Source of the DNA: Bolinopsis microptera
Lineage: Eukaryota; Ctenophora; Tentaculata; Lobata; Bolinopsidae
NCBI RefSeq assembly: GCF_026151205.1
Contig: NC_087084.1
Span: forward strand, 2,636,845-2,700,844
Length of the DNA stretch: 64,000 nucleotides
Direction of reading: 5' to 3'
The notes beneath the pieces were generated by a model. It made no database searches and was not told where the DNA came from. It saw nothing but the letters and a program-made list of their open reading frames with translations. The position numbers and the translations under genes are program-made. Shown here piece by piece: positions 3,085 to 40,100 of this stretch; positions within the stretch are counted from its first letter, which is position 1, and every line of letters begins with the position of its first letter.

Positions 3085-6000
3085 GGTAGGTTTATCACTT
3101 TACTGAAATATACATTATAGTTATACTCACAACCTTCAGTTCCGAATAATGACTCAGTAAGAAGTTAAAGCATTTAAAATGTTTGAACTATGTTTGAAGA
3201 TGAAGAGCGACTAGATGACAAAAGGAGGAAGAAACTATTAACTTATTAACTACTTCGTTAATTAGTTAATTGCATGTCAGTAGGCACGAAGTCTACTGAA
3301 TATACCTAGGTCGATCCAATATATACTAGTACTAAAATATAATTAAACCATATAAAATATACCCAAGGCTGTAAGGCAAGTCGTTTAAAATTAAACATGA
3401 CAGAAAAGATGGGTCTAGTTCCAGATAATTGTCAGTGGACGCTATATCAACATTTGTGAACCAGCGAATAGAAGTTAAACGATGATCGTTTTAAACGATG
3501 GCATAAATAAACTAATTACACACACGGATAATTATTCTATATAATTTATATAATTTATAGAACCATATAAGAGAACAGTATAGTCTCTAAGAGAAGAGAC
3601 GCCACGGAAATAGTTTACATCAGATTACCACTATAGCAAGAAATGCGGCCACTTTTCTTTTGTGGATGGCCGCTCAATTTCCCAATCCCCAGGCTTTACT
3701 GTTTATAAACATGCAGATATGGCGGAGTTATCTAAGTATCTAGGCCGAGCTCCGCCCAGTTACATCCATATTGATTTTGGAAATCGTGTATATTTCCTTG
3801 CAACCCTATGTTTATTGTTTATGCAACCTGTGCATAATAGTAATACCAACTCGAAATACAGTCCAAATAATCGGTTCTTTTGCGATAGTGTAAACGCGAT
3901 AGCTAGCGCCATCCAGCGCCATCCATTGTTACATATAATATCTTATCTACATATCTTAAATGAGTGCCTAGTGGCTTAACGGGAGACGTACATGGTGAAA
4001 TTAACGATTTACTTGTGCGTGCGGGGACGCCGTACGACGGACACAAGCTACCATATATGATATACAAAAAAAACTCAAGGGTTAATGGCTAAGGAAGTTC
4101 GAACCTTGAGTATAAATAAATAAATTAAATAGATTAATCACATTTTGGTTGTGTAGTATAATGTAGGTTTAATAATTGTGGCGGAGGGTTCATTCCATTT
4201 TAGTAATTTTTCTCTGACGAATAATATATCCACGGAGCCTAGCGGGCGGAGCGATATAACTAGGTGAGCTGAAATTAATAACTAATGTTGAGATGAGCAG
4301 ATCTACAGGATATTATATATAATATATTATAGTAATAGGTAAGTCTGCGTGTTATAACTTTATAAGTTGCCCTACGCTGTGGGCCTGCTACACACAAGTA
4401 CACAGCCACAGGAGGAGGAGCCGAGATTAATGAGTTTTATTAAATAACGCGATAGTATCATAGTGCAGAAAACAAGGATGGGTATTAACAAACATAAGGT
4501 TAGATTACATAGTAATAAAAAACTGTAAACAAATAATAAATATCTTGATCCACAGAAAGTGAATGATATCCGGGCGGACTGATATGCGGATGCCCGAGGA
4601 GGCAATATTTTTTCGTATAACACGCAGGGATCATCGAGCCGAATGCAAGAATGCAGACTGCAGGGTGGTTTACGACACTTCGGCTTTTTCAGGTTTGGGA
4701 TTTATGATTTTATATTTGTAGGAATATATGAATTCAGATGCTGATTGTAACTTTATTGTTAAAAGTAAATTTTAACAAGATTAGTCTGGATGCCGAGCCG
4801 CCAGAAGCCAAACGTTTTTAATTCGGGTGTTCGGGAATTTTTCGGATAGAAAGTAAGAAATTTGCTTATAGCTGGATGTATTCAGGGCTGTCAGGCATTT
4901 TAGCACCTGCCTAATTGAAAACTTTTGAAAGATCGAGGCAATCGTCACCTTAACTGATCGAACAGGTACTAACACAATTTTCAGAGCAAAGCACGATACT
5001 ATATCGTCGATAGCAAAGTTAAAATAAACACAATGTAGGTAACCACTAACCAACACCACAATCATGATAACAACTGAATTAAATTCATTCTGAACGACGA
5101 GCAGCTATGTGCTCCGTGATCACGAGCGACCAATATCAATATTAGAGGACAGATGTGTTATGTCAGTGGTATGTCCAGAGGTGTTATGTCAAGGTGCTAT
5201 GTCAAGTGCAAATCCGTCCAATTACGAACAGGAAAAGCGATCCTGCGAGCAGACGGATATCATATGTTTACTTTCCTTATACGTATTTGACCCTCTGTTC
5301 ACATTGTTATCTTTACCACAGCTTGGCTCGGCAATTTCGAGGTGCTATCTGCAACGTGGTACACATATCATGATCTTATTACGTCATAAACTAGAAATCT
5401 TACTATATATAAAGCGAGACGATATATATATATTTATCAGAGCCATTTTACTGACACCACGGCATCAACTTTAACGCGAATTTCCGCAGATATCGTAAAA
5501 GATATACAACTGAAACTTTTTGACTGGGTCAAATGCTTTAATGGCCTCGAAATCAGCATGAAAAAATAAAAATTGGCCAAGAAATAGGAGTTTTAGAGCC
5601 CAAAATGTGGACCACCAAGTGGTGTCAAAAACGCGAATTAAATAGGTAATAATTATTTTAGTCTCTTGAGTCTTGACACCATTTTAGGGTTATACGGGTT
5701 CCTGCTGGCTGCTAGTAATATGAACGTGTAACCGTGCCCAAGTATAATACAAACTGTTTGGGGGGAGGTTAACTTTTAAGATAGGCAACCGATCCTTATA
5801 ATAACAGTGTTTAGGTCGCTCCTCTAATAATAATAATAAATTAGCAATATCTTAAATCCTAATATCTTTTAAATTCTAATTGTCCCGAAAAATCATCTTA
5901 TGGGTGCCTGATCATTAATATTATGTTGAGCTATTTAATAAAAATAAGTACAACAATGCTATTTGATTGACGATGCCAACGTAGCTTTGCAACGATATCG

Positions 6001-7390: not shown

Positions 7391-8118
7391 TGGAAAACAA
7401 ACAATTAACAAACGAATAGACTTCGCAAAGGGTTTCGCTTGAGATCGAAGATTTCAAAACTCTAGTTCGACAGTCGAACTCAAGGGTTTGTCGAACTACA
7501 GACATAGTACATGTCGAACTAGAGTGCACGTCGAACTAAAGTATGTGTAACACTAACTTCCTCCGCTATTGTGTCCTCCGCCCTCGTGCCCAATTATACC
7601 CATCGTTACAAAAATGAATTTAAGTATTACTATCCCGTTCGCTTTGGTAGCAAATTGATGCGAAATCCTCCATTTTCAATGTTGCACTGTTATAAAAGGG
7701 GCCCATTCATGCTGGGGAACATTTCAGTTTTATTCTTTTATATTTCACCCCACATTGTTAGTGTGGGACGTGGGTGTAGGATTCATATAACAAATCTTCA
7801 CTGGAAAGCAGAAGCCGTTCGCACCTTCTCTAGAGGGCCCTGACAGACAATCTGAAATCCTAAAGTTCGCGTTTTGAGGTTGGGGTTGGGGTTAGGGTCT
7901 AGGACATGGTTCTGGTTACACAAGCAGTAAAGACGATAGTAATATATTGATATTTATAATAATCAAAGATCATCGCGTTTCATAATGCATCGATACAGAA
8001 ACTTGAACAAGTGTTCCAAAACAATAAACTTTAACATCGACAACCATAGATCGATGGACCTATATAGCTCTAGACAGCGCTAGTGGGGTCCGGACTCTAC
8101 GGCGTAAGACTCTACGGC

Positions 8119-8154
<36 letters not shown>

Positions 8155-8155
8155 T
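8119..8155 (+). repeat. interstitial telomeric repeat (TTAGGG)n, short block
   Basis: About six TTAGGG units, one with an extra T, lie directly inside the left terminal repeat of the element at 8086-8498. Confidence 0.9.
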
Positions 8156-8268
8156 CACCTAACCATGTGCTTTCGCGCCACTTCGGGCGCGCTTGTTTCA
8201 CAAGTCAAGAGGACAAGTCGTGAGGCGGGCGCGCGCTACTGCAAGCGCAAGGGCTCTGGATAGAGCAA

Positions 8269-8459
8269 GGTTAGGGTTAGAGTAAGGGTTAGGGTTAGGG
8301 TTAGGGTTAGGGTTAGGGTTAGGGTTATAGGGTTAGGGTTAGGGTTAGGGTTAGGGTTAGGGTTAGGGTTAATGTTAGGGTTAGGGTTAGGGTTAGGGTT
8401 AGGGTTAGGGTTAGGGTTAGAGTTCCGGTTAGGGTTAGGGTTAGGGTTAGGGTTAGAGT
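8269..8459 (+). repeat. interstitial telomeric repeat (TTAGGG)n, long block
   Basis: About thirty TTAGGG units with a few variants (for example TTATAGGG, TTAATG, TTAGAG). Ordinary sequence continues on both sides, so this is not a chromosome end. Confidence 0.93.
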
Positions 8460-8754
8460 CTCACGACGTAGAGTCTTACGCCGTAGAGTCCCGGACCCAG
8501 CGCTAGTGATGCTAGATATCGTTTCGACAGCCAGCGACAGATTGCGATCGATGACTGTCGTATAAAAGTGGCAAGCTGACATTATCCGCTAGAAGGCGCT
8601 AGTAGGCGTTATATTTCGCTGTGACAGTCAGTGACACTTAGTTATACTTGAAATAGCGATCGATAACGCCTAACCTAGCGCACCCAAAAAGCTAAGAAAC
8701 TGTCGAAATATAAAAGTTGTGTCTGGATGATTTAGTGTGTATTGAGGGGAATCG

Positions 8755-8940
8755 GTCACGAGGAAACTTCCGCCCTTGTGTCATGTGATCGACCTCCACC
8801 CTCACGACTTCCGCCCTCGAGTCCAGCCTTTTAGGAAACTTCCGCCCTTGAGTCCTACGCCCTTGGGTCTTCCGTCCTCGCGACCTCCGCCCTCGTGACT
8901 TCCGCCCTCATTGTCCTATACCCCTCAGTCCTCACTACTA
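8755..8940. repeat. degenerate minisatellite, CTTCCGCCCTCGTG-like units
   Basis: Units related to ACTTCCGCCCTCGTGTC recur with variable spacing (about 15-18 bp). Related units occur near 7560-7590 and 9148-9195, so the family spreads around the telomeric-core element. Confidence 0.6.
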
Positions 8941-9028: not shown

Positions 9029-9333
9029 TTATCGAGACCGAATGGGTGCATAATTATAAGTTTGTATATTTCATCCAATTCGCACGCCATTGTCCTTCCT
9101 AAGCCGTATGTGGCTTAAAATTATATTGTTGAATTGTGACTCACAATGTGACCTCCACCCTCGTGTCCTACGCCCTCGTGACTTTCGCCATAGTGTCTTA
9201 TAACCTTTATCGAGACCGAATGATCAGTGCATATTTATAAGTTTGTATATTTCATCCAATTCGCATGCCATTGTCCTTCCTAAGCCGTATGTGGCTTAAA
9301 ATTATACTTTTGAATTGTGACTCACAATGTGAA
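9029..9333. repeat. direct duplication, about 125-bp copies
   Basis: The block at about 9029-9152, beginning TTATCGAGACCGAATG and ending CTCACAATGTGA, is repeated at about 9209-9333 with few changes. The spacer holds CCTCGTG-type minisatellite units. Confidence 0.85.
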
Positions 9334-25100: not shown

Positions 25101-28100
25101 TATATTATTATTAATATAACCGTCCTGAACAAACTTTCTCATGGTAAGATAATGGAGTAGGCCTCCACTAAATGTTTGGCTTCTGGTGTACTGTGTACTG
25201 TGTACTGTGTAAGAACCGACCGAAAATCCGGTCCGGTCCGGTATCCGGCCGTTTTTGATCCGGTCCGGTCCGGTTTTAATGCTGATTTTAGCCAGAACCG
25301 GATTTTAAATTCATTCCTATTTTTATCGAGTGAACTTATATTTTTTATAACTTTACTACTATTTTACTATCAAAATATCATCCCCTTAGCGATCCCGGCT
25401 GACTGTCGCCCTACAGCAGTTTAGACGAGACACTAAGTCTCAGCAGATTAATTTAGATACTCGCCTCGCGCAAAATGTTCACAAACGCCAGACAGTCTGA
25501 AGCCAAGTTGTGCAGAGGTTGGAGACTCCAAGTCTGAGCTCATTGTTGCTATATTTGTTGCACGTGCACGGCGCACAGGCGCCAGCTCGTCAGGGGGTGA
25601 AATCGAGTTTGATTTTGTTGTTCCTAAGTTTAACGACATGGTATAATATATATCTAGATACTATATTCGAAATTATCGTGCAGCAACTGTTTGAAATCCG
25701 GTATAATCCGGCGAGCCTTTAAATAAGAGCCCGAATCCGGTATCCGGTCCGGTCCGGTCCGGCATGCCGGATTTTTTATTGAGATCCGGTCCAGTCCGGT
25801 CCGGCAGCAAAAAAGCCGTTCCGGTCGGTTCCTAGTACTGTGTACTGTGTACTGTGTATCAGTGTACTGTCTCCTGTGTCCTGTGTACTGTGTACTGTGT
25901 ACTGTGTACTGTGTACTGTGTACCAGTGTACCAGTGTACCAGTGTACCAGTGTACCAGTGTACTGTGTACTGTGTACTGTGTACCAGTGTACCAGTGTAC
26001 CAGTGTACCAGTGTACTGTGTATTGTGTACTGTGTACTGTGTACTGTGTACTGTGTACTGTGTACTGTGTACTGTGTACTGTGTACTGTGTACTGTGTAC
26101 TGTGTACTGTGTACTGTGTACTGTGTACTGTGTACTGTGTACTGTGTACTGTGTACTGTGTACTGTGTACTGTGTACTGTGTACTGTGTACTGTGTACTG
26201 TGTACTGTGTACTGTATTGTGCACTGAACTTATATTATTATTAATATAACAGTCCTGAACAAAATTTCTCATGGTAAGATAATGGAGTAGGCCTCCACTA
26301 AATGCGTGGCTTACTACTAGAGTACTAGTAAACCCAACACAACTTTTGGCCAACGTTAATTAAATTTGAACAAACTTTTCCATTTTTGGTACAGGCTAGT
26401 CCTAAACTATCTCACAGCTTAGCCCACCAGCTTCAGAGTCTGAGTACCTAATACAGTAACCATAGTAACCATAGTAACCATAGTAACCATAGTAACTGTT
26501 GCTATAACTCATTGATTAGAAAATTAGAACTAGCTAACTAGCCTGAAATAGAGCCTGAAGGAGCTATGTTATGGTTGCTTGGGTACAAGCTAAATGTCTT
26601 TCCAATAATAACGACACCCTGCAGAGTGCAGCTGTACCATAGCAACCCCTTCCAGGACAAGGAAAAACTCCTTCTGTACGACATGTTTCGGTGCATAACA
26701 TCAGCACAGCTGCCAAGAAAATAATTACTATCTACCATTCTAAATTTGAAACTGTACGCCGCCAAGTTTACCTACAAAAATGACAGGCACCAGAAAAACG
26801 AGCTCTAATCTAGATTTCTAACACTCTTTTGTGGCATCTGTCATATTAATGAGTTTACTTTTTGTCTAGCCACGTTATCAGCTTATTAGATAGTCATTAG
26901 TAAAATAAGAGCATTTAGATCTCATTGCATGCTTCGCTGACTGCTGTAATCACTAATGCCTGCTGTAATTTAGCGATCACAGAGCGTTAAAGTGCAACTT
27001 TGATCCTGCTAAATTAGTTTGAAATAAGTCACCTGACGGTGGACTTTTAGGATTGATATTACATAGTTTAACTACTATTCACAGCGAAATTTTGACCAAA
27101 TAATGAACCAGTTACGGTAATCCGAGTAAAATGTAGGGCTGTAGTCTGTACCTTGCGCAACTAAGGTACGTTAATATAATAGCTATATTTTTCTTAACCA
27201 CTTTATGTAATACACTAATACAGTCATCACGAGGGTTACTAATAGGGCCTGTCGTGATATCATGGATCGCTTAGGTTCCACCAGTCCTCATAATTCTGCG
27301 GCCTCTATGTGTCGTCAATTAGTAACCGTTACTAATTAACACACTACCCCACCCCAAGGTAAGCGAGTGAGAGAGTCTGCTTGTTAAAGTAAATTATTTT
27401 GAAGTGTGCACTTTATAATATATTACAAAATAAAGGTCATAAAGAAAAGGTCTATGTTTAGATTTATACTGTTGAAATATTATTTAATAGATCTTACAAT
27501 ACAAAAACAGGCCTTATCAATTTTTAAAGGAATATATCATACTTTGGAAATGGGCGGGATATATTATAATATAATATATGATATTTTGTTTCAGTTCATT
27601 AAAGTGAGGGATAAAGAGTGGGCAGTGTTGTAATGGTTTCTACACGGTAAATATCAGGATGGGACAGTGTTGTAATGGTTTCTACACGGTATATACCAGG
27701 GTGGGACAGTGTTGTAATGGTTTCTACACGTATATACCAGGGTGGGACAGTGTTGTAATGGTTTCTACAAGGTAAATACCAGGGTGGGACAGTGTTGTAA
27801 TGGTTTCTACACGGTATATACCAGGATGGGACAGTGTTGTAATGGTTTCTACACGGTATATACCAGGATGGGACAGTGTTGTAATGGTTTCTACACGGTA
27901 TATACCAGGATGGGACAGTGTTGTAATGGTTTCTACACGGTATATACCAGGATGGGACAGTGTTGTAATGGTTTCTACACGGTATATACCAGGGTGGGAC
28001 AGTGTTGTAATGGTTTCTACACGGTATATACCAGGGTGGGACAGTGTTGTAATGGTTTCTACACGGTATATACCAGGGTGGGACAGTGTTGTAATGGTTT

Positions 28101-31100
28101 CTACACGGTATATACCAGGATGGGACAGTGTTGTAATGGTTTCTACACGGTATATACCAGGGTGGGACAGTGTTGTAATGGTTTCTACACGGTATATATC
28201 AGGGTGGGACAGTGTTGTAATGGTTTCTACACGGTAAATATCAGGGTGGGACAGTGTTGTAATGGTTTCTACACGGTATATACCAGGGTGGGACAGTGTT
28301 GTAATGGCTTCTACACGGTATATATCAGGATGGGACAGTGTTGTAATGGTTTCTACAAGGTATATACCAGGGTGGGACAGTGTTGTAATGGTTTCTACAC
28401 GGTAAATATCAGGGTGGGACAGTGTTGTAATGGTTTCTACAAGGTATATACCAGAGTGGGACAGTGTTGTAATGGTTTCTACACGGTAAATACCAGGGTG
28501 GGACAGTGTTGTAATGGTTTCTACAAGGTATATACCAGAGTGGGACAGTGTTGTAATGGTTTCTACACGGTAAATACCAGGGTGGGACAGTGTTGTAATG
28601 GTTTCTACACGGTATATACCAGGGTGGGACAGTGTTGTAATGGTTTCTACACGGTAAATACCAGGGTGGGACAGTGTTGTAATGGTTTCTACACGGTATA
28701 TACCAGGGTGGGACAGTGTTGTAATGGTTTCTACACGGTATATACCAGGGTGGGACAGTGTTGTAATGGTTTCTACACGGTAAATATCAGGGTGGGACAG
28801 TGTTGTAATGGTTTCTACACGGTATATATCAGGATGGGACAGTGTTGTAATGGTTTCTACAAGGTATATACCAGGATGGGACAGTGTTGTAATGGTTTCT
28901 ACACGGTAAATATCAGGGTGGGACAGTGTTGTAATGGTTTCTACACGGTATATACCAGGATGGGACAGTGTTGTAATGGTTTCTACAAGGTATATACCAG
29001 GGTGAGACAGTGTTGTAATGGTTTCTACACGGTATATACCAGGGTGGGACAGTGTTGTAATGGTTTCTACACGGTATATACCAGGATCAAGGATGCGACA
29101 GTGTTGTAATGGTTTCTACACGGTAAATATCAGGGTGGGACAGTGTTGTAATGGTTTCTACACGGTATATACCAGGGTGGGACAGTGTTGTAATGGTTTC
29201 TACACGGTATATATCAGGGTGGGACAGTGTTGTAATGGTTTCTACACGGTATATACCAGGGTGGGACAGTGTTGTAATGGTTTCTACACGGTATATACCA
29301 GGGTGGGACAGTGTTGTAATGGTTTCTACAAGGTAAATATCAGGGTGGGACAGTGTTGTAATGGTTTCTACAAGGTATATACCAGGGTGGGACAGTGTTG
29401 TAATGGTTTCTACACGGTAAATATCAGGGTGGGACAGTGTTGTAATGGTTTCTACAAGGTATATATCAGGGTGGGACAGTGTTGTAATGGTTTCTACACG
29501 GTATATACCAGGGTGGGACAGTGTTGTAATGGTTTATACACGGTAAATATCAGGGTGGGACAGTGTTGTAATGGTTTCTACAAGGTATATACCAGGGTGG
29601 GACAGTGTTGTAATGGTTTCTACAAGGTATATACCAGGGTGGGACAGTGTTGTAATGGTTTCTACACAGTATATACCAGGGTGGGACAGTGTTGTAATGG
29701 TTTCTACAAGGTATATACCAGGGTGGGACAGTGTTGTAATGGTTTCTACACAGTATATACCAGGGTGGGACAGTGTTGTAATGGTTTCTACACCTGTTCG
29801 TAAACACCCAAGTGTTGTTGGTTCTGAGCATGCAGTATATCAGCTCAGCGTGGACGCTGTTACTGGTTCTCTACAATGACCGGAACACGTATTATAGATC
29901 AACAAGCACAGCACATAGTGATTTATTGTATTGATTATGGTTTTATCTTTAGTAACCAAATTAGTGAGACCTATATTAATAGTAATGTACACATTCACAC
30001 AGTAAATCTCCTAAGACTCAGCGTTTGAATTACCAGCAACCGTCCCATGGTAATTAACCGGGTGTTAACAACACAATCTATTGTTTATATCACCGAAGGT
30101 CGGCAGCACAGTGATTCGGGGCGATTTGACAGCATCTTGCTAAAGAAGTACATCACCATACTGGCAGTGTATGTAATATAGGCTTTTCTTTATTATTAAC
30201 ATACAAGATTGGGACATTTCAACATGTCTTTGTCGCACACTTATCACACGGATGGGAATGTTTGTTAAATGGTAGAAAGTAAGAATTACACAAGGTAATA
30301 TATCTGTGTACAGGGATATGTAACTGGTTATATATCTACGTTATACCAGGTGGGACATGTTGAGCATCTTCTACATCGTATGAATGTATAGTAAGTGGTC
30401 TAAGACCTTATTTGATTTAATGGTTTTTACGTAAATTCAGGATGTTAAACGTTTCAAAATAGGTACTTTACAAATACCAGTCAATATCCACAGGTTATTA
30501 TGGCAGTTGATTTATACCTATTTAATTGATAAAAAGTAATTAATACCTTTGGAACGTAGTCGTTTTTGGTTTCTAGTATGCAAAAAGTATATTTTACAGT
30601 TAAAGGATGGTAGTGGTGTGTAATTTGTACACGGTAATAGTCCTGCCACAAACCTTAATGGATTCTACCGCCGATTAATACTTACAGTTGCCATGATTGT
30701 ATGTTCTAACACACACGATATAGTACTATCAGATTCGGTTGCAAGACAGGATATAAACGTTGTCTTTTAACCTAGAAATGAAGTTTAAGACAGGCTGGAC
30801 TGCACGTTAAGGGTTCTATTCGGAATTTCTACTGGCAGCATCGTAATACTGTGTGATGGAAGTGTATCGTAAATGAATATGCTACAGCACCGTACAATTC
30901 TTCCTTTGTTACGGTAGTGTGTCGTTGTAAGCTATTTACACGTATGCACTCGTTGAGGTAACGTTAGTATGTTAGTAATGTGAGTACTCGTGACTCATAA
31001 CTTGATGTTATACCGGGGTGTGGGTTGTAAGAATGGATGTGCGGATGAAGTAGAGCTTACCACACGCTATACCAGGGTACGCAGTTACGATCTTGATATA

Positions 31101-34100
31101 AGAAATGGTAAGATATCGCTGATAGATCAAGAATCACCTGGAGTGGGAAGTTTCTCGCAGAAATGGTGGTCTACAAAGTGAATATAACCTAGGATGTCAC
31201 CCTACTTACTAAAGGTTTCTACACGGTATGATACGATCCCTGTTGGGACCAGGTTGTGCAATGGTTCCAGGTAATCAATACAGGATGGTAACCCACATGC
31301 ATTGTAATCTACACAGTATATACCAGTGGGACAGTGTTGACTAAGGGTTCTAAACACCTGTTCCCAGTTAAAACACCCAAATTAGTGTTGAGTTACTGAG
31401 CATGCAGTTACAGCTCAGCGTGACGCTGTTACTGCTTCTCTAAATGACCGAGATATTATTAGATCCAACTATAGCACAGACACATAGTGGAATTTATTTG
31501 TATTGAGTTATGGTTTTATTCTTTAGTAACCAAATTTAAGTGAACCTATCATTAATAGTCAATTACACAATTACACATGTACTAAGCTCCTTTAACCAGC
31601 GTTTTAATTACCCAAGCAACCGTCACCATGGTGATAAATTAACACCAGGGTGTCAACAGCACCATCTGTTGTTATATATCAGCTCTAAGAGTCGAAGCAG
31701 CAGCAGCAGGATATCGGGCGCGATTTGACAGCATCTTGCTAAATTATGAAGTACATCAACATACTGCAGTGTATATAATTATAGTGCTTTCTCTTTATTA
31801 TTACATTCCAATATTGTACAAATTTCAACATTTCTTTGTGCGCACCACATGCATCACACAGATGGAATGTTATGTGTAATTGTATGGTAGAAAGTAAAGA
31901 ATTGACACAAAATGAGACATTATATTCTGTGTACAGAGGACATGACACTACATAATATAATCCTACTGTTACCATGGAGACATGTTAGCATCTCTACATC
32001 TGTTGATGGAATGTAGGTAGTAAGTGGTTCTTAAGACCTTACTTTATGATTTAGATTTATTTACTGATACATTCAGGATTTAAACTTTCAAAAAAGGTAA
32101 CTTTAACAAAATACAGTCAATACTCCAGTCTCCACAGGTATATTATGGCCAGTCTGATTTATTACCATAATTTAATTGATAAAAAGTAAATTTAAGTACG
32201 CTTTAAACGTAGTCGTTTTTGCTTTCTAGTATGTCAAAAAGTATATTTTAAACTTAAAATTGGTTGGTAGTGGTGTAGTAATATGGTAAAAAACTGCAGT
32301 GACTGAGAATTGAAACGGCTGTCAGTCGTCAGATGGGAAATGCAAATTTGAGTTATCAAAATTACAAATTTAGTGTCTTCTTGACAGTTTTAGTGTCTAC
32401 TCGAGTACTCGCAATTCGAATTAAGAAAAGACGAAACCTTGGGAGAAATTCACCACCCTGATTACATACTTTACAGTTCCAATGATTGTAGCTCTAACAC
32501 AACACGATATCAAAGTACAATATAGATTTCCGAACTTGGCAAGCACAGATCATAAACGTAGTACTTTTAACCCAGAAATATAAAGTTTTAAGGAAAGCTG
32601 AGACTGCACGTTAAAAGAGCGTTCTATTCAGGAATATTATCTATCTGGCAAGCATTGTAGATTTGTGCTGCATGAAGTGTCCTGTAAAGAATTCACACTA
32701 CAGCAACCGTACAATTCCTTCCTTTGTTACCGAGTAGTTTGTCGTTAAGATAACATTTCACTTTGCAGCTCGTTGAGTAACTCGTTAGTAACTCGTTAGT
32801 AACTCGTTAGTAACTCGTTAGTAACTCGTTGAGTAACTCGTGAACTCATACCGTTGATTGTTAGACGGGGTAGTTGGAGTTGTAAGAATGGATGAGCGGG
32901 ATGAAGTAGAGCTTACCACAAGCCTAACAGGGCTACCCAGTATATACGATCTTGATAAAGGAAATGGTAAGATATTCGCCTTGATAGAATCAGGGAATCA
33001 CACTGGAGTGGAGAAGTTTCTGGCAGAAAGGGGTCACAAAGTGAATATCACACCAAAGATAGGATGTTCTCCCATACACTACTCAAAGTTGAATCTTGCC
33101 AACTGTGAGAATGAAAATGACGATACTCCACTGATCATGGCAGCCAAGGTTGACTGCAAGATGGTCCAGATAGTTATCAAGTACGGAGGTAACCCCAACC
33201 ATGCCAATAAGGATAGAGATACCCCACTCAGCATCGCAGCCAATAGAAGCGACAGAGAAACTATAGATGTACTTCTGTTAGCAGGGGGTAACCTCAGGGC
33301 TGCTGTGGTAAAGCTTACATCAGCATTAAGGTACATCTCTGAAAAACAGCTCAAAGAATCTACCAGAGCTGGCTTCAGTGTCAGGCCCTTGACTATTTTA
33401 TTAGCAGATGATGTATATCTAAAGTGCAGAGATCCTATAAAAACAGCTTTCGATGTCTGTAAAGATATCGAGCACATAAAGGACGTAAGAGACGAGTTCA
33501 AAATTGAATTTGAGTTGCTGATGAGGGATTCAGATCTTTTTGCATACAAGTTTCTCAACCATTGTGATAAAATGTTTGAAGCGAGGGAGATATTAACGTC
33601 ATCTCTAAACCTCCTTACAACTGCGATAGATCGAAGCAAGAAAAAATTTGTCTCTCACCCGTTCAGCCAGCAGATCATTAATGAACGTTGGTACGGTGAA
33701 ACTGCTAACAGATTATTGTTCGGAAAGACTCTAATAACATTCAAGTACTTGACAAGCCCTCTAGTACTACCATTACTCTTTCTGAAGTTTCTCTTCATTG
33801 ATATTTGCAGAGGTATTCCTTTCATGGACTCGTCTTTTGCTGATCTATTGAGGTTGTTGTTCGTCCCTTGTTTGTGCTTCACAACAGATGCAATAAACTA
33901 CATAGGCTTCATGGCTGTGATGGTTAGTACTTGCCTTATTCCATTTGGAGCGGGAACATATAAGGTGACCGCTATAGAATACGTGCTTTACTACTGCGTA
34001 TTCGCTAGGATTCTCATTGAGACTGACCTTCTCATTCAACAAACCTGGAAGCGATACTTTCGCAACTTCTGGAACTTTGTAGATTTATCCGTCATATTAC

Positions 34101-37100
34101 TGTTAGTGGTGGCTGCAATTTATAAGGGCAGCATAAACTATATTATAAGCAGACAGCAAAACATTATCGAGGCAAGCAATTACAATTCCCGCGAGTTCAA
34201 CATCACGTGGTATGCGGGCCAAGAAGATATCCTGATCAACCAGCATGACAATTCTATGAACGTGAACTTCATCTACGCTGTTGCCGAATTCATCTTGACA
34301 ATTAGGCTGCTCAGTCTTCTAGAAATCCACAAATCACTTGGTACAATGTTGATTGCACTGAAGTATCTGGCTGCTGACGTCATAAAATTTGGTGTGATCC
34401 TTCTTACAATCATATTAGGAACATCTGTAGCTATTTTCTCCATGACCATTGCTCTGCAAGAATGGAATCAGGAATTGGAGACGATAGCGGTGCTTTATGA
34501 CTGGCCAGAAGGCCTCCCAAAGAAGCTGCCTGACGTAACTGATGAAAGGAATAGGATAGAAATACCAGATGTATTTGCCACCTTCTCAGACACATTACGA
34601 AACATCTTGTGGGGGACGTTTGGACTTCTTGATGTCGTGGTAAGTCATATAATTTGTAGATTTTTTAGCTTTATACAAATCTGTATCACTTTGCCCGTTT
34701 CATATAGCGAGGGAAAATACATCTGTAGATTCAATAGATGAATATGATGACTATGATAAACAGGACAAGCGAAATCTGTGATCATTCTCTTTCAGAATCT
34801 GAAGATAGAGAAAGAACAACCTACCACAGACTTCATAAACATAATGATGATTCTGTACGTTCTTCTCTCATGTGTGCTTCTGCTAAACATGCTCATCGGT
34901 ATTCTGAGCAGCACGTTTGACATGGTTAAACAGAACTGTGATATTGAGTGGAAATATGCACGAAGTACCCTGCTCAAGGTACATAATTTAGTTTTTCATT
35001 TAATTGTATTTTAGTTTTTCAACAATGCTAACCCGACCTACACAAGGGTAAAAAAACAGTTGCAGAATATTTAGTGTGCTGTAGTACCATTCCAAGCAGT
35101 CTAACCAACTATGTATCAGATATATTTTATGATTTATGAGGGATTGACAATTAAATTTTCAGGAGTACAGCAGGGCGCAACCTTTCCTCTTTCCATTCTT
35201 CCCTTTTCTTTTTCCCTTTATTATTTGGTTCCGCCGAAAGTTGAGACAGGAGCAGACTAAGAACCGTCAGAAAGATAGCAATCTTACAGAAGAGAATGAA
35301 CGTGACAAGCTAATTGAGGCAGTCTGCGATAGGTTTATGTTTGGGAACTTAGTTGGTGGATCTGATGGTGATGGTGATATGGAGGATCAATCTTTTGAGA
35401 CAAGAATGAAGTTTAGAAAGCAAAAATCTGTGTTGCTACAGATAGCACAAAAAGTAAAAAGCAAAAGTAAAGCACAAAAGTAAAAGGAAAGAAGTAGAAT
35501 TTGAAAGAGAATAGAGTGAGTGATAATGGATATTGATTCGGACAGAGTAGTAGATTGTTATTAAATAAACTAATTACAACACTACAAATCTATTACATTT
35601 AAATTTGAGAATTATGTAATGTAACGCGATGGAAGTATTTTAAGCGGGCATATCCTGTCTAAACCCAGGATGCACGACATAAAGAATTTGTTTTAACTTG
35701 TTTGTATGAAAAGCATCAATAAACAATTTATATCTTTATATCTAGCGTGAGTTCAAGATAGGTAACAATTGAATAATACGGTCAGAAAGTCTAGTGTTAT
35801 ACACTAATTACAGGGTGTTCCACATAAAATATGACCTCGTTGAAAGAGAATAAACAATCTTTATGAAGGAGCATATAATGCATTATGTATATATTTTGTA
35901 TATATAATTATGAATATTTTATATATATATTGTGATATAATTGAGTGAATCGTTGGTTAGTTTCTTATAATTTATTTATTTTGTTAGCTTCTTGAAAAGA
36001 GAGGGAATGTTTTATTGATTTAGCAAACAAATAATTTTATCAAAATTACAAACGTAGATGAGAATAATTAATACTATATTAATTAGCCTCTTAGACTAGA
36101 ATCAGTAAAGACGCTTCAGTTATTCATGAATTGTGAAACTCAACATGAGATGGAGTTTCCAGAATTTTGATGATTTCTTGAATATAAATACCGAAATGAT
36201 GATACCGAGTGTATCCTACTTTTGAAAGGTACGCACAGGTATTGCATAGAACAAAGCTTCAGACCTCCTTAAAAGCTTAAATTTTTAATGTACATTTCGG
36301 GAGTAAATTCAAATTAATCATTGGCTTCATGGAAGAAATTTATGAGATTCTAAACAGAGTTACCATCCGTTCAAGCTTTGAAAAATAAAGGCGTCAAGAT
36401 CTTCAAGTAGATTTTTCTAACAATTATCCAGTTGTAACTTATTTCATGAGGATGAATTATTGAAAAGTCCCTCTGAAGCTTTCAAGATTACGGCAACTCC
36501 TATATTATATTCTAAACAGCAGATGTTGCAATAAAAATATACTGTAAGGTCATCTCAAAAATTCAAAAATTCAACAAAGTCAAGAAAATTGATATTTGTA
36601 TTACTGTTTAAAAAGTAATATTCATATTTATCTTAAAATTTACGATCTTTATTCAGAGTATTGGTTATCATAACGCCACAATGAATAGAAATAATTCATT
36701 GTTGATGCAAGTTCGGTATTTCAATGTGATGTCTAATCTGTATTCTTCTCGTTACTTCGCACATTTTACTTTTCATTGATTTAAATCTGCAGCTGTCGGT
36801 AGATTTTAAGCCACCATCTGATTTTTGCGGTTGAAATAAGACTATGTGTGAACTGTGAAGAATGAAGCAGGAAGACAAGATGCACGACACACAGCTTGAT
36901 GTTTCTATCGCTGCAAAACAAGAAAAAGAAACATCCAGAGAAATAGAAGGTCTGGAGGAACCAAGGGAAAACGGATCAAAGAGGACAGAAAGAGGCCTCA
37001 AAGTAGAAATATCAATTCCTGAAATCAAAATGGAGTGCTTGTCCCTCCACTCCAATTCAGACCTAGATTACAAGAAAAATGAAGATGAACCGACTGTGGC

Positions 37101-40100
37101 ATCCAGGGACTTCAAGACAGTAGAAAAAGAACCACAAAGTAGTCCCAAGCTAGCAGGCATGCCCAGCATTCGTGACCTTGATAAAGGAAATGGTAAGATA
37201 TTCGCCTTGATAGAATCAGGGAATCACACTGGAGTGGAGAAGTTTCTCGCAGAAAGGGGTCACAAAGTGAATATCACACCAAAGATAGGATGTTCTCCCA
37301 TACACTACTCAAAGTTGAATCTCGCCAACTGTGAGAATGAAAAAGGAGATAGCCCACTAATCATGGCAGCTAAAATTGACTGCACCATGCTGGATATCAT
37401 CCTAAGTTATGGAGGTAATCCAAATTATACCAATGTAGACAGAGACAGCCCATTAACCATAGCAGCCAATCGTTATGACAAGGAAACAATAAGTGCTCTA
37501 CTGTTAGCAGGTGGTAACCTCGAGGCTGCGGTTGTAAAGTTAACTTCGTCTCTAAGGTACGTATCAGAAAAAGAGGTCCAGGATAACAGTGAAAGCGGCT
37601 TTAGTGTTAGGCCATTGACAATCTTGTTGTCTGATAACGTATACTTGAAGTGCAGGGACCCGATTAAAACAGCATTATGTGTCGATAAGAGCATCAAGAA
37701 GATTAAGAACGTCCGTGATGAGTTTACAGTTGAGTTTGAAATGTTGATGCAGGAAGCAGATGTTTTTGCGTACAAGTTCCTGGACCACTGTGATAAGATG
37801 GCTGAGGCAAAGGAAATCCTATCTCACCCAGTAAACTTATTGAGAATAGCCATAGATCAGGAGAAAAAACAGTTTGTGTCTCACCCATTTAGTCAACAGC
37901 TCATCAACGAGCGTTGGAATGGAGATTTAACCAACACCCTCATTCATGGAAAGACAGTGATATATCTGAAATATATCACAAGCCCGATAGTACTGCCATT
38001 GCTCTTTCTTAAGTTTCTCCTGTTTGAAATCCACAAGGGTATCCCAATCATGAAGTGCTCTTTCGCGGCCCTTCTGAGACTAACATTTACTCCTTACTTA
38101 TGCTTTCTCACGGACACAATAAACTACTTGGCCTTTCTGGCAATAGTGGTGTGTGTTTGTGTGATTCAGACCGATTACCAAGTTGGACCGATGGAGACTG
38201 CCCTGTACAGCTGTGTCTTGTCCCGTATCTTCATTGAAGTAGATTTCCTGGTGCAGCAAGGGGCGAGAAGGTACTTCCGCGACTTTTGGAATATGGTGGA
38301 TATCATGGTCATTCTTTTGCTGTCTGTTGCCTCATTCTATGAAGTAATGATCCACTTCAGAGTGGAGCATATTAACCGAAAGTACAGTAAGGAAATGGAG
38401 ACAGAGCAGCCATTTGATTACAAAAAACTGGAAGAAAACGTGATGAAGGCACATCAGGATGCAATGAGAGTCAACTATATTCATTCGGTCACAGAATTTA
38501 TCCTGACAATACGCATTCTTGGTCTGTTAGAAATCTCTAAATCACTTGGCACAATGCTGATAGCCCTGAAATACCTGATAATAGATGTTCTGAAATTTGG
38601 AATTCTTTTGCTGACAATCGTCTTCGGAACAGCCATAGCAATTTACTCCATGACAATAACCATCAATGAATGGAACGTCGAACTGGAAAGATCGTCAGAA
38701 TTATTCGCTGATAACTACACTTTCACCCTGCTACCGTACAACAGGAGCCACCCTGAGGGTATAGTAAAGCCCCCAGGCGTATTCAAGACTTTTCCTGATA
38801 CCATGAGGAATCTTTTGTGGTCTACATTCGGCCTGCTTAATGTTGAGGTAATAATCTTGTTTGCCTGCTCTGTTATTTTTAAATGACGCTTCATTTCATC
38901 ATGAATCCTTTATTACTTTTTCAACTGTAATGACAATTTTCCATCGACATAATTCATTAAATTACGTCCGGTTTCATTAAACCAATCCACAGGAGCTGTC
39001 CTGTAAACACGAGAACTCAACAACAGACTTTATCAACGTGGTTCTCCTCCTTTACATCATCCTATCCTGTGTGTTGCTCCTTAACATGCTGATTGGTATT
39101 CTGGGAAGCACTTTTGATAGGATCAAGGATAATTGTGATGTTGAGTGGAAATATGCTCGGAGCCAATTACTCAAGGTAATTAATTAATTAATTATATAAT
39201 TAATTAATTAATTATATAATTAATTAAAATAGTTATCAATTAAATAGTTATCAACAGTTATACATGGCGGGTCTATACTTTAGTTATACCCGATAATTTT
39301 CCATTTTCATCATATATATTATTTAGGACATCCATTCCATTTGCTGCAACTTTATTATTTCAGGAATACAGTAGAGCCCAACCTCTTCTTTTTCCTTTCT
39401 TTACCCTCTGCTTCCCATTCATCATCTGGTTCCGTAAACAGTTGAGAGAAGAAAGAAGGAGAGTTGTGGAGAAGGAAACTGGTTTAACGGAACAAACTGA
39501 ACGTGATAAGCTCATCAGTACCGTCTGTCACAGGTTTTTTAATCACCATATTAATGTCACTGATTTGTTGAAAAGTTTGATTTGCCTCTTTGATAGAATT
39601 GCTTTTGACACTTCCTTTTCTTTCAATGTAGTTTAACATGCGGTCGTATACGATAAGATCGAGGAATGAAAATAAAACTTCTGTTTTTTCATTCTTCTTT
39701 TTATGTTTATATATTTGCCTTTTCATTTTCCTATTACAAACAACACTTAGGTTTACATTCGAGATTGAAGGCTCTAGGCAAATCTCAGCTGATACTGATA
39801 AATGTACAACATTCGAAGAAAGAGTACCAAAACAAAGGTCTGTGCTGAGAAAAGTTGCTGCCAGAATGAAGAAATAAAGAATATTATAGACAGAAACACG
39901 TACTTGTAACTTATAATAACTATGATAACTATGATAACTATGATAACTATGATAACTATGATAACTATGATAACTATGATAACTATGATAACTATGATAA
40001 CTATGATAACTATGATAACTATGATAACTATGATAACTATGATAACTATGATAACTATGATAACTATGATAACTATCATAATTATGATAACAATGATAAC

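Follow-up and report, generated by a model that had tools for sequence, protein, structure and literature searches.

The window, by which we mean the whole 64-kb stretch of DNA analysed here (G000:C13:2636845-2700844, from a 264.65-Mb assembly of 232 contigs), contains at positions 8085-8498 an element of 414 bp in which telomere-type repeats are enclosed by inverted ends. These ends are ~35 bp long, have the form (G)GGGTCCGG(G)ACTCTACGGCGTAAGACTCTACGGCG and are made of 15-bp units. The left terminal inverted repeat, GGGGTCCGGACTCTACGGCGTAAGACTCTACGGCG (8085-8119, + strand), which was also found at other loci, carries two GACTCTACGGCG units at 8093 and 8108, spaced by 15 bp; its counterpart on the right, ...CGTAGAGTCTTACGCCGTAGAGTCCCGGACCC (8464-8498, - strand), was recognised by inverted-repeat and GACTCTACGGCG matches. 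Pairing of 8084-8119 with 8464-8499 extends over 36 nt at 89% complementarity, and the 12-mer GACTCTACGGCG, allowing one mismatch, matches four times in the 64-kb window, always within the element ends, against a chance expectation of 0.05. Folded as a single strand, the element gave a z of -8.3, with none of 100 shuffles equally good, a strong fold that is due to the inverted ends. The sequence AGCGCTAGT(G) stands on both flanks, and the best limits of the element, GGGGTCC...GGACCC at 8085-8498, are accompanied by a 9-bp target site duplication, AGCGCTAGT, at 8076-8084 and 8499-8507 (both unstranded). The left copy extends to 10 bp, up to 8085, with a shared G, and AGCGCTAGTG forms a direct repeat at 8076-8085 and 8499-8508. 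The first-pass annotation had described TTAGGG blocks inside terminal inverted repeats of about 30 bp and an 8-10-bp direct repeat around the whole; the 36-nt pairing and the two AGCGCTAGTG copies agree with both descriptions.

The core of the window element is only partly telomeric, with a GC-rich stretch (~8155-8268) between arrays at 8119-8155 and 8269-8456. As features, these are a first telomeric block (8119-8154, + strand, ~6 GGGTTA units), a GC-rich non-telomeric insert (8155-8268, unstranded) found in none of the other loci compared, and a second telomeric block (8269-8456, + strand, ~31 GGTTAG units at 90% match). When one mismatch is allowed, GGGTTAGGGTTAGGG matches 24 times in the window, 23 of them within 8119-8458, where the expectation is 0.00. 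We call the core telomeric from its TTAGGG sequence, which may not be the telomere repeat of the host. Comparison of window 8150-8272 with 89 other merged loci gave no match longer than 21 bp, and an Rfam search of window 7900-8700, up to E 5, gave no match to a telomerase RNA or any other family. The RNA fold of 8154-8272 had a z of -2.25, with 3 of 200 shuffles equally good. The insert of ~115 bp that splits the telomeric core of the window copy is possibly captured DNA.

Beside the element, 15-bp repeats of the GACTTCCGCCCTCGT type, equal in unit length to the element's end units, occur at window 7560-7590, 8761-8921 and 9137-9197; they are perhaps the ends of another family. Elsewhere, the window holds a 42-bp tandem repeat of ~52 copies (27618-29793), which contains a repetitive 455-aa open frame, and two further frames, at 32858-34741 (ankyrin Ank_2 above the cut-off, Ion_trans below it) and at 36862-38886 (PKD_channel, polycystin-channel, above the cut-off). 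These similar neighbours are likely a tandem pair of channel genes. Reverse-transcriptase-like frames are also present in the window, with matches below the cut-off; together with the channel-like frames they point to an animal.

The ends of the window element recur throughout the genome. A 24-base end stretch, with up to three mismatches, was found at 512 sites, against none for the reversed-pattern control, and the outer end, GGGTCC followed after 0-6 bases by ACTCTACG, occurs exactly at 89 sites (control, 3), some few of which are unrelated minisatellites (e.g. C3:17203465). The left inner junction, ACTCTACGGCG followed directly by GGTTAG, is present at 44 sites if one mismatch is allowed, 31 of them exact (control, 1), and the right inner junction, allowing two mismatches, at 136 (control, 0). 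Of these 136, 100 places were listed, and 41 of the 100 have zero or one mismatch; many of the right-junction sites with two mismatches represent bare end units that lack a telomeric core. The family's ends are asymmetric, with GGGGTCCGGACTC on one side and GGGTCCGGGACTC on the other.

From 90 merged loci, a sample of 32 telomeric copies was drawn by a strict two-end rule combined with a minimum of 18 telomere-like bases; telomeric copies failing the strict rule, such as C4:5445045, C11:3870606 and C13:9139357, were left out. At least three duplicated regions are counted twice in the sample (C12:3683312/3770530, C4:11716262/C122:11478 and C3:1815263/C169:16909), so that at most 29 of the 32 copies, and 18 of the 19 target duplications described below, are independent. 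The telomere rule is only weakly satisfied by C4:11716262 and C122:11478, whose cores begin with GCAGATTT. Copy length in the sample ranges from 58 to 413 bp, with a median of 195, and the telomere-like bases per copy from 18 to 295; six perfect consecutive GGGTTA units are present in 9 of the 32. The smallest copies read, of 58-59 bp (C3:20174124 and C5:11345708), consist of about two TTAGGG units and the two ends. End units, countable in 30 of the 32 copies, number 1-8 on the left and 1-3 on the right. Longer arrays of the 15-bp unit occur at C1:932766 and C2:22537600, and C2:22536103-22538429 has ~55 copies of it at one end, as estimated from length. Many scattered copies with the same inverted ends are the mark of MITE-type dispersal, and inverted ends assembled from varying numbers of short tandem units are the mark of Foldback/Tm1-like elements; the present family shows both.

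Flanking repeats of 8-10 bp, with at most one mismatch, border 19 of the 32 telomeric copies. When the left flank of one copy was paired instead with the right flank of another, the frequency was 0.26% on average and 3.3% at most over 200 shuffles. These duplications are specific to their loci, as is usual for a TIR DNA transposon; examples are CAGCCGTGC, CTTAATGGT, CTTTCCCAC, CACTACCAC, GATATTTTG, GTTTGCTAC and TCCAGAAAT. A long relative, C12:4702581-4706811, has a clean boundary, GAGCATATA/GGGGTCCGG...GGACCC/GAGCATATA, which indicates that the duplication is 9 bp and that the element starts with GGGGTCC. An exact 9-bp duplication was also found at C13:2791578, and such exact copies identify the tenth base in the window as a target G coinciding with the first G of the element. 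By the rule applied, the other 13 of the 32 copies have no duplication; they may be old.

Empty-site queries were made from the joined flanks of 17 copies, with one target copy each, and the genome was searched with 10 joined flank pairs together and with one pair (C6:16750924) alone. The empty counterpart of the window copy lies at C4:5653529-5653645, which matches query 687-807 across the junction at 89%. The part of this paralogue that was read runs ...CTCTAGACAGCGCTAGTGACGCTAG..., and the 60 bases read at C4:5653572-5653631 contain AGACAGCGCTAGTGACGCTAG with one AGCGCTAGTG. The copy at C7:15620374 lies in a 30-bp satellite; its neighbouring units show no break at the corresponding junction (99% over 124 bp). 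For C6:16750924, whose host repeat we take from its letters to be tRNA-like, 25 of 41 matches to the joined flanks cross the junction, and the best of them has 93% identity in 120 bp. A weaker match across the junction of C6:13371124 (59 bp, 81%) was found at C11:11347138, and both flanks of C11:2741016 appear again on C5, ~80 bp apart, at a counterpart that is presumably occupied. Seven of the 10 flank pairs searched together found only their own locus. The family has empty sites, then, as a TIR DNA transposon does. Flanks differ between loci for most of those read. At least eight sets of loci have common flanks, by duplication or tandem repetition (C12:3683312/3770530; C4:11716262/C122; C3:1815263/C169; C4:5445045/5555098; C3:20174124/20243398; C2:714068/C13:12704515; C8:17812203/17846158; and C4:2609100 and neighbours with C5:746617), and some family loci have been multiplied by segmental or tandem duplication.

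Fixed ends in dispersed copies, together with target duplications and empty sites, indicate insertion as a unit. We consider it very probable that the family is a non-autonomous cut-and-paste MITE with Foldback-like composite ends and telomeric cargo, most likely of the Mutator superfamily. The first-pass annotation had read the locus as an inserted TIR element with a telomeric core and, provided that it had sister copies, as a transposition route for spreading telomeric DNA. The first reading is supported by the ends, duplications and empty sites, and the second by the dispersed, two-ended telomeric copies. As support it had named many loci with the same ends, variable TTAGGG counts, 8-10-bp duplications varying from locus to locus and an empty site holding AGCGCTAGTG once; these were found in the 89 exact outer ends and 44 inner junctions, in the spread of telomere-like bases among the 32 copies, in the 19 copies with flanking repeats and in the paralogous site on C4. 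The converse picture it had named, in which the ends occur here only or are always joined to the same flanks, does not describe loci whose flanks mostly differ. A dispersed 15-bp minisatellite lying near telomeric microsatellites, with no transposition, is a reading that draws on the long 15-bp unit arrays at C1:932766-933171 and C7:11244955-11245091, but it does not account for the fixed outer boundary GGGTCC/GGACCC, the duplications or the empty sites. For copies that have duplications and empty sites it is refuted, and as an explanation of the ends we find it hardly credible.

Mutator superfamily duplications are 8-11 bp, mostly 9 bp, and those of the present family, at 8-10 bp, fall in this range. 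It is the 9-bp duplication and the repeat-built ends that, by analogy, make membership of the Mutator superfamily most likely. Telomere-bearing elements (TBEs) belong to the Tc1/mariner family, with telomeric repeats at the outer tips and not in the core, and their type of target duplication is TA, unlike the 8-10-bp duplications found here. In the passages available of the source, the TBEs of the ciliate Oxytricha resemble the present family in being transposons with telomere-type repeats (PMC12242761). The closest described family, as far as the excerpts of its report extend, is Tm1 (Mutator/Foldback) of root-knot nematodes. Its composite inverted ends consist of 13-15-bp units in tandem, which vary in number, and have asymmetric terminal motifs, and its duplications are 9 bp, falling within 8-10 bp in 45 of 53 (PMC3169594). 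Tm1 thus shares with the present family composite unit-built ends, 9-bp duplications, MITE-like members and paralogous empty sites; its end sequences differ, and its cores, unlike those described here, contain MITE filler, a histone hairpin or, in some members, a Mutator transposase of the Phantom type (PMC3169594). The string 'telomer' occurs nowhere in the text of that paper (PMC3169594). In the passages of its report that were available, Tetris, a Foldback element of Drosophila virilis, is likewise non-autonomous, with repeat-built inverted ends and 8-10-bp duplications, and was put in Mutator on its ends and duplications, with no known transposase; it differs in its 220-bp units and kilobase ends, and those passages mention no telomeric core (PMC4079207). 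MITE-associated tandem repeats are already known (PMC6947457), with microsatellite or tandem-repeat cores in, for example, the (GTCY)n MITEs and Xstir; in these the repeat is other than the telomeric hexamer. A literature search of mostly open-access titles, abstracts and passages yielded no paper recognised as describing a TTAGGG core in a TIR or Foldback element.

The profile PF10551 has 98 matches in the genome, none of which lies between family ends in the sequence read. A proximity test set 240 Mutator-type hits, some of them parts of one element, against 137 end positions, which were drawn partly from the 100 places listed of 512 and the 100 listed of 136, with clusters entered once; it gave 3 pairs within 8 kb, where ~2 were expected. 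Comparison of 58 positions of a sister subfamily, described below (from the 100 places listed of 117), with the 98 PF10551 hits gave 0 pairs, where 0.34 were expected. In both comparisons, proximity did not exceed the level of chance. No autonomous element with family ends was found among the loci read, and two candidates were rejected. The first, C2:22536103-22538429, combines family ends with an open frame that has a weak FLYWCH match (E 1, below the cut-off) and a C-terminus that appears Mutator-like. This resemblance is supported by a 99%-identical copy at C9:14616856, which has a 341-aa open frame in register with the PF10551 match at C9:14617330. Family ends are absent within the 751 and 451 bases read after the close copies on C9 and C11, and the Mutator-like fragment in the C2 element is edged by its own CACTAATTATACGTCA repeats. 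With its own borders and copies elsewhere, this fragment seems to be a nested piece of a different element, and C2:22536103-22538429 was dropped as autonomous partner. The second, the 4.2-kb relative at C12:4702581-4706811, has exact ends and the duplication GAGCATATA; the 1.2 kb read in its middle contains one open frame, a reverse transcriptase (PF00078, E 7.2e-19), for which reason it too was dropped. Its interior is probably a nested retrotransposon. A possible long relative extends from C1:25693480 to about C1:25699704.

The sister subfamily has ends with GACTCTAGGGCGTAA units, which contain CTAGGG, and these ends occur exactly at 117 genome sites (control, 0). From the 100 places listed of the 117, 42 elements were paired, 34 of them 144-330 bp long, six 929-960 bp, and two 572 and 753 bp. 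The eight pairs with letters have GGGTCCGG at one end and GGGTCCGGG at the other. The length of the short elements (e.g. C1:7303091-7303288) is divisible by 6 in 29 of 34 and leaves a remainder of 3 in the other five; counted as distinct short lengths, the multiples of 6 make up 12 of 15 (p 1.3e-7 against an expectation of one in six, kinship of copies ignored). From these 6-bp steps, hexamer cores are predicted in the short copies, and the remainder of 3 suggests an occasional extra 15-bp end unit beside a hexamer core. TTAGGG cores are present in the three members read, C7:15620374, C6:16750924 and C5:11345708. Among the places listed, no short element of this subfamily on C1 coincides with a perfect six-unit array, and the short sister cores are accordingly predicted to be shorter, degenerate or of another hexamer.

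In 23 of the 32 telomeric copies, the strand that carries TTAGGG is directed from the GG end towards the GGG end; no copy has the opposite orientation, and nine are undecided. The core begins exactly with GGTTAG in 19 of 30. This common orientation and the shared junctions suggest that the telomeric cores trace to one main founding capture and then spread. At C7:15620374-15620568, the telomeric core has other inner junctions, CTAGGGTCTTAGGG and TTAGGGCGCCGCCCTA, so that a second origin or exchange is possible. The telomeric repeats at this locus begin at CTAGGG and GCCCTA motifs that belong to the element itself, which hints that such repeats may be seeded by end units. Cores could in that case have arisen repeatedly from telomere-like end-unit motifs (CTAGGG, GCCCTA) in an element that moves by its ends, by slippage or telomerase action and not by a single capture. 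The CTAGGG within the sister GACTCTAGGGCGTAA units, the 6-bp steps of the short sister copies and the different junctions at C7:15620374 point in this direction; the same two junctions and the same orientation in many telomeric copies point away from it, and we hold repeated origin to be possible but rather unlikely. If the cores do derive mainly from one capture, an ancestral element would have gained telomeric repeats between its GGCG and TAGAGTC motifs, mainly once. A transposase supplied in trans would recognise the ends, cut with a 9-bp stagger and move the element, and the core would later lengthen, shorten and degrade through slippage. Every insertion would then be a new interstitial telomeric sequence that involves neither chromosome fusion nor break healing.

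Six perfect GGGTTA units occur at 3233 overlapping genome sites. Ten separate long TTAGGG arrays lie on C1, all internal, and only one of them (17115158-17115331) is at a recognised family end. The nine C1 arrays without a recognised end, at 2450481, 11960027, 12167872, 12190028, 12537838, 16240408, 22183063, 24299736 and 25541848, have alongside them no exact outer end of either subfamily and none of the 100 places listed of the 512 matches to the 24-base end (up to three mismatches). With one array in 10 at a recognised end, the element accounts for some of the interstitial TTAGGG and may not be the main source of the long arrays; more diverged family ends may lie beside the nine. Interstitial telomeric sequences are commonly taken as traces left by chromosome fusion or by break repair, the latter being the usual account of short ones. 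Those formed by break repair have neither inverted ends nor a target duplication, and the window element has both. Placement of TTAGGG at each site by telomerase-mediated or capture-type double-strand break repair predicts neither the same ~35-bp inverted ends and inner junctions nor the fixed orientation to asymmetric ends, the 9-bp duplications or an empty site in which the target stands once. It is disfavoured for the present family, where we judge it very improbable, although a similar process may operate in this genome, nine of the 10 long C1 arrays being without a recognised transposon end. In the passages available, the TERC-ITS resemble the present family as interstitial telomeric repeats placed at new sites; they have telomerase-RNA fragments alongside them and are explained by break repair, and the same vertebrate study suggests that transposons took no part in their spread (PMC8537989). 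Two reviews mention transposition as one way in which interstitial telomeric sequences might arise (PMC6410037, PMC9693754).

The core might be more than cargo. It could be a working part that the element has retained, with telomere-binding proteins, G-quadruplex or telomerase acting on it in targeting, in the protection of excised ends and in extension of the core, and the family would then scatter portable telomere seeds; we regard this as improbable. If true, such seeds could heal breaks or mark new chromosome ends. Insertion by transposition is the reading we prefer, and with the vehicle, its ends, duplications and empty sites all identifiable, part of the interstitial TTAGGG requires no fusion or break. 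The family is a concrete route for copying telomere-type DNA into the interior of animal chromosomes, and such copies are best excluded when interstitial repeats are to serve as evidence of fusion.
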